In this document: positions 1,388-46,479 of the stretch, in pieces
Position numbering within the stretch: position 1 is the stretch's first letter
Layout: the number at the start of each line of letters is the position of its first letter
Assembly: GCF_032116555.1 (NCBI RefSeq)
Contig: NZ_CP134949.1
Span: 496,001 to 560,000 of the forward strand
Direction of reading: 5' to 3'
DNA: 64,000 nt
Origin: Halobaculum sp. XH14
Lineage (GTDB): Archaea; Halobacteriota; Halobacteria; Halobacteriales; Haloferacaceae
Position numbers and translations under genes: made by a program
The notes under the pieces: generated by a model
The model's input: the letters and a program-made list of their open reading frames with translations, nothing else
What the model was told of the DNA's origin: nothing
Database searches by the model: none

Positions 1388-1470
1388 ACCCTCGACCCTC
1401 GCCCCCACCGACTTTCCTCTTTTCACTGATGACGGCTGACGTGGTTGGGATTTCGGATCGGGATTCCGGA

Positions 1471-1820
1471 GGCGGTCGGCGCGCGTGACGGCGAGCCCCG
1501 AAGTGGGCGAGCAGACGCGCGCGAGGGACGAGCACCGCAGGCGAACGAGCGAAGCGAGTGAGACGAGGAGCGCAGGAGGCTGGGGAGGGTGAGGCGCGGG
1601 GCGGTCGCGGTGGGTGGGACTGAAAGGGGCCGGCTGGGTACGCGAACCCCGGACCCGGTGAGGCGAGCAAAGCGAGGCGAACCTCGGAAGTCGCAGCCGA
1701 CGAACGTCGCGAGGAGGACCGTCTTCCGTAGCAAGCACCGCAGGCGAGCGTAGCGAGCCGAGGAGCACAGCGCGGTCCGCGGGAGCGTAGCCAGCCGGGG
1801 GCTTTCGAGGCGGTCGTCAC
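1471..1820 (-). repeat. Composite intergenic repeat, copy A (full, with hairpin)
   Basis: This fills most of the gap between the small membrane protein and the aldo/keto reductase. Read on the minus strand it has, in order: GAAAGCCCCCGG (module 1), a long hairpin, CCCCTTTCAGTCCCACC (module 3), a CTCACCCTCCCCAGCCTCCTG block running into GGTGCTCGTCCCTCGCGCGC (module 4), and GTCACGCGCGCC at the end. The hairpin arms are 1630-1643 and 1785-1798, complementary at 13 of 14 positions. Related copies occur at eight other places in the window. Open frames through this region are by-products of GC richness. Confidence 0.85.
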
Positions 1821-6699: not shown

Positions 6700-6932
6700 G
6701 ATGACCGCGAAAGCCCCCGCGGCTCTCGGCTCCCGGGCCTCGCTGCGGTCCTCAGTCGCTCGCTCCGCTCGCGCCCGCCGCGGTGCTCGTCCATCAGATG
6801 CGGTCGGCGCGTGCCGGCGGGCCTCCGTGCCCGCCGGGTGCGCGCGAGGGGTGAGCATCGCAGCGAGCTTGCGAGCGAGAAGCGCAACGGCTGGGGAGGG
6901 CGAGGCCGTAATCACCGCCAGCAGTAGTGATC
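6700..6932 (+). repeat. Composite intergenic repeat, copy B (partial)
   Basis: The gap between pitA and the LURP-one-like gene holds a partial repeat. It begins with GACCGCGAAAGCCCCCGCGG (module 1), continues through a Ser/Arg-coding-like GC-rich stretch, and ends with a module-4 block in the opposite orientation (CGCGCGAGGGGTGAGCATCG, then GGCTGGGGAGGGCGAGG). It closes with TCACCGCCAGCAGTAGTGAT, a terminal module also seen in copies C and F. Module 3 (the GGGACTGAAAGGGGC stretch) is absent. No coding is seen in 6587-7006. Confidence 0.75.
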
Positions 6933-17762: not shown

Positions 17763-18113
17763 GGCGATCGCGGAAGCCCCCGCGTTTCTCGGCTCGCGCG
17801 CCACGCGCTGGGCTCCTCGCGCTCGCTCCGCTCGCGCTGTGGTGCTTACGGTGTCGTGCTTCCCCGAGAAACGCGGCCCCTTCCATTTCCGCCCGTCGGT
17901 AATTCGGTCGAGCGACGCTCCGCTGGCTGACCGATGTGTGCCGTCGGTCGGTCAGCCGGCATCGGCGCGCGGCGGCCGCGCTCCGCGCGGCCGCTCGTGC
18001 GAGGCTCAAGCGAGCGCAGCGAGGGTGAGTTCCGAGGAGCGTGCTCCGAGGTAAAGACGAGGTCCCGACCGAAGGGAGGGGCATCGCCGGTTGGGGAGGG
18101 CGAGGCTGCGGTC
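17763..18113 (+). repeat. Composite intergenic repeat, copy D (diverged, with hairpin)
   Basis: This fills most of the 595-base gap between the MATE gene and the ferredoxin gene. It starts with GATCGCGGAAGCCCCCGCG (module 1). A perfect 13-base stem follows: CCGCGTTTCTCGG at 17780-17792 and CCGAGAAACGCGG at 17864-17876. The module-3 region is diverged (GGCCCCTTCCATTTCC). A GCGCGCGGCGGCCGC palindrome-like block lies near 17965, and module 4 is recognisable at the end as GGTTGGGGAGGGCGAGG. I see no gene in this gap. Confidence 0.75.
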
Positions 18114-28203: not shown

Positions 28204-28281
28204 GATGACCGCCTCGAAAGCCCCCGCGGCGCTCGACTCCCCCGCACCACGCGGTTGGTCGAGCAGATGCGGTCGGTGCGG
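28204..28281 (+). repeat. Composite intergenic repeat, copy E (short fragment)
   Basis: Only module 1 and its flank remain: GATGACCGCCTCGAAAGCCC, then CCGCGGCGCTCGACTCC, and GAGCAGATGCGGTCGGTGCGG, which also occurs in copy B. It lies between DUF5806 and rimI. Confidence 0.65.
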
Positions 28282-31165: not shown

Positions 31166-31543
31166 GACCACTACTGTTGGCGGTGATTGTAGCCACGGCC
31201 TCCCCAGCCGATTGCGATGCTCGCTCGCAGGCTCGCTGCGCTTCTCATCCCTCGCGCGCATCCGGCGCGGACGGAGCCGCGCCGGCACGCGCCGACCGCG
31301 GCCAACTCGACCAGGCCACGTGGTGCGCGGCGGCCGCCCCTCGTGGGCGACCGCTCGTGCGAGGGACGAGCACCGCAGGCCGAAGCTCTCGTGAGCGACG
31401 CAGGAGCGAACGAGAGCACGCGGGTCGAGCGAAGCGAGTCCCGCGAAGGCCGAGAAGCGCAGGAGGCTGGCGAGAGTGAGGTGCGGTGCCGTGCGGTGGG
31501 TGGGACTGAAAGGGGCCGCGGGGGCTTTCGAGGCGGTCACCAC
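31166..31543 (+). repeat. Composite intergenic repeat, copy F (hairpin-less, two module-4 blocks)
   Basis: Fills the 606-base gap after gtrA. It starts with ACCACTACTGTTGGCGGTGA, then CCTCCCCAGCC and a forward module-4 block. A GTGCGCGGCGGCCGCCCC section follows, then a reversed module-4 block with GCGAGGGACGAGCACCGCAGG and AGCGCAGGAGGCTGG. It ends with GGTGGGTGGGACTGAAAGGG (module 3, 31494-31518) joined directly to GCGGGGGCTTTCGAGGCGG (module 1, 31518-31536). The long hairpin of copies A, D and H is absent. Confidence 0.8.
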
Positions 31544-36537: not shown

Positions 36538-36768
36538 TGGCGCGCGGCGGCCGCCCCTCGTGGGCGGCCGACTCGCGCGAGGGATAGAGTGAGGGGAGCG
36601 ACCGAAGGGAGCGCCGAGCGAATCGGCTGGGGAGGCGTGTGGCCGTGCCGTGCGGAGCGGGTGCGGTGGGTGGGACTGAAAGGGGCCGCGGGGGCTTTCG
36701 ATGGGCCGAAGCGACGACCGAACCAACGCTCGAACCGAGAGCAGCCGGGGCTTTCGAGGCAGACACCA
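36538..36768 (+). repeat. Composite intergenic repeat, copy G (hairpin-less)
   Basis: Between pyrH and moaE. It starts with GCGCGCGGCGGCCGCCCCTC, passes CGGCTGGGGAGGC and reaches GGTGGGTGGGACTGAAAGGG at 36666-36685, which joins directly to GCGGGGGCTTTCGATGGG (module 1). A second module-1 half follows at 36743-36766 (GCCGGGGCTTTCGAGGCAG). The 25-base module-3 segment is identical to those of copies A and F. Confidence 0.78.
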
Positions 36769-39482: not shown

Positions 39483-39514
39483 TCGGGCCGCCAGCCGCCC
39501 CGGCCGACCTCCGT

Positions 39515-39639
39515 ACTGATCCATTCCGGACCTGACTCGTCCCGGACTGATCCATTCCGGACCTGACTCGTCCCGGACTGATCCATTCCGGACCTGACTC
39601 GTCCCGGACTGATCCGTCCCGGACCCGACCCGTCCCGAC
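39515..39639 (+). repeat. 31-bp tandem repeat, about four copies
   Basis: Copies begin at 39515, 39546, 39577 and 39608, each 31 bases apart. The first three are identical (ACTGATCCATTCCGGACCTG, then ACTCGTCCCGG); the fourth is diverged and truncated by the thiL stop. Each unit contains TCCGG and CCGGA arms, so it can form short hairpins. It lies between the convergent site-2 protease and thiL genes, where transcripts from both strands meet, and could serve in termination. Confidence 0.9.
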
Positions 39640-46159: not shown

Positions 46160-46430
46160 ACCCCTCGAAAGGCCCCCGCGGCGCTCGGCTCCCACGAACC
46201 GCGCTGCGCTCCTCGTCACTCGCGTTGCTCGCTCCTGTGGTGCTTGCGGGTTCGGGGTTCGCCGAGAGCCGCGGCCCCTTTCAGTCCCACCCTCCGCACG
46301 GCACCGCACCTCACCCTCCCCAGCCTCCTGTGCTCCTCGGTTCACTCGCTTCGCTCGTTCACCTGCGGTGCTCGTCCCTCGCGCGCGTCGCCTCGCCCCT
46401 TGGGGGCTCGCCGTCACGCGCGCCGTCCGG
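46160..46430 (+). repeat. Composite intergenic repeat, copy H (full, with hairpin)
   Basis: The best full copy in forward orientation, between hisS and truA. Order: CTCGAAAGGCCCCCGCGG (module 1), hairpin with arms 46176-46189 and 46262-46275 (13 of 14 paired), CGGCCCCTTTCAGTCCCACC (module 3, 46273-46292), CTCACCCTCCCCAGCCTCCT, GGTGCTCGTCCCTCGCGCGC (module 4) and GTCACGCGCGCCGTCCGG at the end. Similar in order to the reverse complement of copy A. Confidence 0.85.
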
Positions 46431-46479
46431 CTGGTTCCCATCCACGTCGCCTAAGTCGGACGCCCGCCTGCCACGAATC

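Follow-up and report, generated by a model that had tools for sequence, protein, structure and literature searches.

We describe a dispersed intergenic element of Halobacteria, REP/SMR-like in kind, in which the strand bearing GGGACTG probably folds as a rod-like recognition site for a class-wide protein (probability about 0.6). This reading draws on two-sided covariation of the stems, a constant spacing of 13–14 bp from the GGG/GGG to the GA/GA motif (both unpaired, purine, and conserved), mismatches that are asymmetric between strands, gain and loss among congeners, and constraint on the copies at two fixed Haloferax loci. What natural selection seems to maintain is the folding of one of the two strands. 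The putative protein, present across the class, would read both internal loops of the rod and the length of helix between them and would ignore the sequence of the stem, so that compensatory changes passing through G-U intermediates could alter the stems freely. In genera with few copies, Haloferax among them, a single copy may function as a fixed site for the host; in Halobaculum and in genomes of the Halorussus type, the element may have multiplied. A functional fold would imply that a factor recognizing structure instead of sequence is widespread among haloarchaea; to our knowledge, few structured elements combine a high copy number with conservation throughout an archaeal class.

Copies in the window and the host genome

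The window is a 64,000-nucleotide stretch (C1:496001-560000) of a 3.68-Mb archaeal genome with 70% GC. The small contig C3 of this genome includes a segment 75–89% identical to Halobaculum plasmids, which makes Halobaculum or a near relative the most likely host. The repeat family numbers ~80–95 copies in this Halobaculum-like host genome, where they are scattered between genes. We observed the anchor GGGACTGAAAGGGG 95 times at no more than one mismatch (49 forward, 46 reverse), and a reversed anchor used as a control had no occurrence in the same genome. With a covariance model (R1) trained on 32 copies, 81 genomic places were identified at E values up to 0.001. Genome-wide, the covariance search returned two complete copies in the window (D and H); when R1 was run on the window alone, it also returned copy A and two short forms. 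The element exists in two states: the "empty" form measures ~32 nt (GGGACTGAAAGGGGCCGCGGGGGCTTTCGAGG), and the occupied form, in most cases 103–140 nt long, has a variable hairpin between CCG and CGG. A full copy forms a rod of ~110–130 nt. The right-side unit GGGGGCTTTCGMGG occurred 89 times in the genome, sometimes in tandem at a spacing of 57 nt. Tandems of a right-side unit GGGGGCTTTCGAGG at exactly 57 nt were seen in the host genome (G000) at C1:443511/443568, 945982/946039, 1082408/1082465, and 1884571/1884628. A CRISPR array was considered and rejected, since the copies are dispersed on both strands and only the right-side unit forms short 57-nt tandems.

The complete copy D lies at 17769–17890 (−), identified by its R1 score (100.5 bits, E = 4.5e-17), its sequence, and its fold. 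It consists of a GGAAG/CTTCC foot, a GGG/GGG loop, a stem (P2) joining 17864–17876 with 17780–17792, inner helices, and a tip. The arms CCGCGTTTCTCGG (17780–17792) and CCGAGAAACGCGG (17864–17876) were present and paired at 13 of 13 positions; in element orientation (−), CCGCGTTTCTCGG is the 5′ arm at 17864–17876 and CCGAGAAACGCGG is the 3′ arm at 17780–17792. Copy H, also complete, occupies 46164–46288 (−) and scored 109.6 bits (E = 8.9e-19), with a fold z score of −3.58. Its left arm was found at 46176–46189, where the original prediction had placed it, whereas the right arm, GCCGAGAGCCGCGG, lies at 46261–46274 instead of 46262–46275; the two arms pair at 13 of 14 positions. Copy A, at 1616–1809 (+), is complete with an enlarged loop (R1 54.5 bits, supported by its fold), and its predicted P2 arms, 1630–1643 and 1785–1798, were likewise present and paired at 13 of 14 positions. 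The three stems had been described as sitting at the same place in the element, and we located them all directly inside GAAAGGGG ... GGGCTTTC.

Partial forms were also found. The R1 search detected "empty" forms without the variable hairpin at 31502–31533 (+; GGGACTGAAAGGGGCCGCGGGGGCTTTCGAGG) and 36672–36703 (+), and an extra right-side unit (CGGGGCTTTCGAGG) lies at 36746–36759 (+), 56 nt downstream of the latter, similar to the 57-nt spacing elsewhere in the genome. A truncated copy (copy B, 6705–6787, −) retains the right side and the 3′ arm and has lost the 5′ arm, and a degraded copy at 28212–28280 (−) consists only of the right side and 3′ arm (R1 18.3, E = 0.11). The inner module (GCACCGCAG - tip - GAGGAGCGCAG) stands alone upstream of copy A at 1532–1575 (+), and similar stand-alone modules occur at 46323–46374 (−) and 6845–6893 (+). 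These partial R1 matches scored 24.3, 23.5, and 16.4 bits, the last being weak (E = 0.25).

Anatomy and covariation of the rod

From the three stems it had been proposed that the structure of the element is kept and not its sequence, an idea to be judged on a larger alignment. This proposal held: covariation was present in 32 aligned copies, in 127 occupied copies, and across 13 genera. Among the 127 occupied copies, Watson-Crick pairing was 0.77–0.92 at stem positions 4–13, compared with 0.33–0.48 when right arms were shuffled among copies (z 10.6–14.8). In the alignment of 32 elements, changes on both sides were seen at 19 of the 28 predicted pairs, and 96.5% of cells were paired, as against 75.1% after shuffling and at most 49.7% after sliding; the covariation score was 0.499, versus 0.132 for shuffled and up to 0.10 for slid alignments. 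With one element per genus (13 genera), Watson-Crick pairing reached 95.3%, compared with 53.7 ± 5.3% in shuffles, the best of 5000 of which reached 74.6%, and the left arms of this set shared a mean identity of only 50%. Covariation thus exceeded the shuffle, slide, and one-per-genus controls, as expected for a single-strand element whose structure is conserved.

We read the anatomy of the rod on the GGGACTG strand across 229 distinct arm pairs, obtained with a search pattern that favors the GAAAG/GGAAG feet. The 5-bp foot (P1) was GAAAG/CTTTC in 217 of these pairs and GGAAG/CTTCC in 9. Next comes a 3 × 3 internal loop, GGG/GGG (220/229), followed by the variable P2, which was 13 or 14 bp long in 157 of 229, and directly inside P2 by a GA/GA step (116/229). 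A second helix, P3, is variable and covarying as well. The inner purine-rich loop is conserved, AAGCACCGCAG with GAGGAGCGCAG, and its CC/GG pair covaries to CT/AG. The tip is built of short helices capped by C-GNA-G triloops: GNA made up 170 of 241 triloops, against a composition expectation of ~7% and 14 of 149 on the complementary strand, while 4 of 60 tetraloops were GNRA and none was UNCG. Some genomes, G241, G260, and G328 among them, keep the outer part of the element and carry a different inner module.

The mismatches within P2 are not symmetric between strands. Over the 229 distinct arm pairs, G-T outnumbered A-C by 103 to 22 (p = 1e-13) and G-G outnumbered C-C by 66 to 7 (p = 4e-13), so that G-U is the most frequent departure from Watson-Crick pairing, and the GGGACTG strand also has purines at the conserved unpaired steps. 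This asymmetry argues that it is the GGGACTG strand that folds, and that it does so single-stranded. Because the element occurs in both genomic orientations (in the window, copy A on the plus strand and copies D and H on the minus strand), mutation linked to replication or transcription cannot easily yield such an asymmetry, whereas selection on a single-strand fold can. In 8 of 190 scored copies the interior was inverted relative to the conserved shell, and a strict function of one strand therefore cannot hold for every copy; examples are L068, G077:C1:627520, G045:C3:122807, and G191:C1:2350658. The inverted interiors are evidence of DNA-level recombination between the arms.

Genomic context, distribution, and two Haloferax loci

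By a codon-usage gene model, none of the 95 copies lay inside a gene. The 92 classified copies sat between tandem genes, with the element in the same direction as the genes (28) or in the opposite direction (23), and between divergent (29) or convergent (12) genes, and orientation relative to genes was near random in the window genome. No promoter-like AT rise was found within 250 nt upstream of the element, and no T-run downstream of it. This context, together with the lack of a promoter or T-run, argues against a simple cis-acting mRNA element and an independent RNA gene, not against occasional transcription. We accordingly rejected an independent sRNA gene on the two missing signals and a cis element of 5′ leaders on the near-random gene directions.

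Comparison with congeners revealed a labile element. Neither of the two congeners has it in the intergenic region that corresponds to the copy A site. Copy B, truncated in the window genome, is complete in congener G040 and absent in G016, and the hairpin of copy D is missing in G016, where the right-side GGGGGCTTCC unit remains. Some places with the right side only look as if the inner module upstream had recombined with the loop. Among the orthologous sites compared, none showed a precise insertion with a defined, clean empty site or a target duplication, as a MITE with terminal inverted repeats would leave; the "empty" forms can equally be explained as deletions between CCGCGG repeats.

An exact 17-mer of the element was found in 100 of 292 Halobacteria genomes (39 of 77 genera) and the full pattern in 52 of 292 (24 of 77 genera), including Halorussus, Halomarina, Halonotius, Haladaptatus, Haloferax, Natronococcus, and Halobacterium. 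None of 164 genomes from other classes of the phylum contained the full pattern. It was present on four haloarchaeal plasmids and matched no phage. Viral spread was rejected, as four viral-contig matches to the 17-mer lacked the element and were chance-like.

Haloferax carries two copies inherited at fixed loci, each lying downstream of a gene and in the same direction: one between an M20-peptidase gene and a gene that by eye resembles carboxypeptidase Taq, the other downstream of a gene that by eye resembles pgi (glucose-6-phosphate isomerase). At the M20 locus, the element was 97–100% identical across 14 records, some from the same species, compared with mostly 52–92% in the flanks between species. 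Its three substitutions are all C/T, and each retains a G-U pair on the GGGACTG strand. At the pgi locus, one lineage carries matching changes in the two arms of P2 and of P3. In Haloferax relatives without the M20-locus element, the site is occupied by unrelated sequence or by the right-side unit only (G049). The M20-locus element is separated from the next gene by a stretch containing a promoter-like TTTAATA; at the pgi locus, a T-run comes before the element. We rejected a link to pgi across genera as coincidence, since the element flanks pgi on the opposite side in the window's own genome and is ~720 bp distant in Halobacterium. Haloferax is genetically tractable, and its one or two copies at fixed loci make deletion and compensatory-mutation tests simple. 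Just upstream of the element at both loci (L102, L106, and relatives) are short tandem repeats of ~30 nt (GCGACGAC..C.GAACA..CCAC).

Related systems, alternative readings, and neighboring repeats

As a short dispersed palindromic element, the repeat is of a known kind; what is new is a covarying rod with two conserved internal loops. The papers searched, which excluded most subscription journals, did not describe it. Rfam detected only tRNA in the window at the gathering threshold, and only tRNA and chance-level matches at five element loci at E up to 1. Rfam's structured non-coding RNA families resemble the element in covarying helices and conserved internal loops, but the element has no family match, no promoter, and an orientation random to genes. 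Bacterial REP/REPIN sequences with RAYT are likewise intergenic palindromes of ~100 copies with variable sequence and a conserved foot; the element, by contrast, lacks a GTAG or CGTC tag, has the foot GGGACTGAAAGGGG / GGGGGCTTTCG, and forms a much longer, multi-helix rod. Integron attC sites also keep structure over sequence, with unpaired spacers at fixed positions and one strand that matters, yet the aligned ends of the element contain no RYYYAAC or GTTRRRY core boxes, there is no cassette array, and the outer sequence is strongly conserved. Mitochondrial double-hairpin and GC-cluster palindromes are mobile GC-rich hairpins with compensatory stems, unrelated to the element in sequence and host. 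The paper on intrastrand-triplex (PIT) elements that we compared includes no haloarchaeal case.

The nearest described relatives, compared by description only, are the SMRs and PATEs of Haloquadratum (PMC3119063). SMR-A of Haloquadratum walsbyi is ~110 bp long, palindrome-associated, and bounded by inverted repeats, with tens of copies per genome and no target duplication seen (PMC3119063); it shares with our element a haloarchaeal host, size, inverted repeats, and copy number. SMRs and PATEs were defined as sequence families inserted in IS605-type palindromes, and neither covarying stems nor conserved internal loops were reported for them (PMC3119063). A Y1 transposase acting in trans, as PATE/IS605 elements use, was absent from the window's own genome in a search for PF01797. 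TnpA_REP (PF01797) was absent from G000, G016, and G040, and Y1 transposase showed no association with copy number over 40 genomes. On both grounds we rejected a Y1/RAYT transposase as the mobilizer.

Two readings require no selection on the fold. Chance complementarity in 70% GC DNA is refuted: GC-rich arms do pair above average, and shuffled arms still match at 33–48% of positions, but z stood above 10 at stem positions 4–13 and the 13-genus set was separated from all shuffles. The stems might also be maintained neutrally, through template switching or arm-to-arm gene conversion, which is already disfavored and which we consider very improbable. Arms of 13–14 nt could template each other, and the inverted interiors are DNA-level events between arms. 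Such a process, however, should erase the mismatched GGG/GGG and GA/GA steps, yet both are conserved beside a changing stem, from which we infer that arm-to-arm correction alone is unlikely. Nor should it leave strand-asymmetric mismatches or a stem length that is constant across the class, and the Haloferax orthologues differ by single wobble-preserving substitutions, not by wholesale replacement. The mismatch asymmetry and the conserved internal loops together make the element a clean case in which to distinguish fold selection from neutral palindrome repair.

Where the fold is taken to be functional, the question is in which molecule it forms. The element might act in cis as a structured RNA in untranslated regions, for example as a 3′-UTR stability, processing, or termination element, a reading that we regard as possible but doubtful. 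With RNA parameters, the minimum-energy fold of one copy (L018) is the whole consensus rod, whereas DNA parameters give only the outer half and do not predict the inner helices. The prominence of G-U, the position of both fixed Haloferax copies downstream of a gene in its direction, and the hairpins found upstream of some termination sites in Hfx. volcanii (PMC7237163) are also consistent with RNA. Against this stand the near-random orientation, with 29 of 92 classified copies between divergent genes, the lack of a T-run after the element, and, in Haloferax, the promoter-like TTTAATA that follows the M20-locus element and the T-run before the pgi-locus element. A hairpin of folded single-stranded DNA, which a recombinase or transposase would use while DNA is replicated or transferred, in the manner of attC or REP hairpins, is in our view a candidate worth keeping in mind, though an unlikely one. 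The dominance of GNA triloops, a DNA-stable loop type known from mini-hairpins (PMC4686876), and the near absence of GNRA and UNCG point in this direction, as do the missing promoter and terminator, random orientation, inverted interiors, and congener lability. The inner helices left unpredicted by DNA parameters, the failure of Y1 transposase to track copy number, and the missing attC core boxes speak against it, and constraint at the fixed Haloferax loci is unlike a purely selfish site. Given a functional fold, RNA would be slightly ahead of single-stranded DNA as the folded strand. Returning to the rod as a recognition site for a class-wide protein, we tentatively propose, at a little short of even odds, a mobile single-strand-folded family spanning the class, read by the putative protein through two purine loops 13–14 bp apart and domesticated at the Haloferax loci; it would represent either a novel class of structured RNA or the first counterpart in archaea to folded single-stranded recombination sites.

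Other repeats lie near or within the element. Additional GC-rich repeat types of rod-like form (GCGCGCGTGAC...GAGGCTGGGGAGGG and related types) occur in the window at 1470–1600 (+), 46298–46432 (−), 6800–6932 (+), 31166–31299 (−), and 17964–18100 (+), in many cases immediately upstream of the element, and some carry the element's inner AGCACCGCAG/GAGGAGCGCAG module. A hairpin insert, GTTCACGGGCGCTTGCGCCCGTGAATTCGGGAGAGCGTGCTCTCCCGT, interrupts the left arm of P2 at about position 8 in L005, L014, L040, L065, L078, L205, and L413, making a repeat within a repeat. Another nested insert, TTCGAGAGAGCGGAGCTCTCTCGTCATCACGAAAATCTTCGATTTTCGAACGAC with its variants, has stems that are variable yet self-complementary (L012, L023, L024, L026, L056, L059, L065, and L404). 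At 39511–39637, a 31-bp unit, CCGGACTGATCCATTCCGGACCTGACTCGTC, unrelated to the element, is repeated in four tandem copies between genes.
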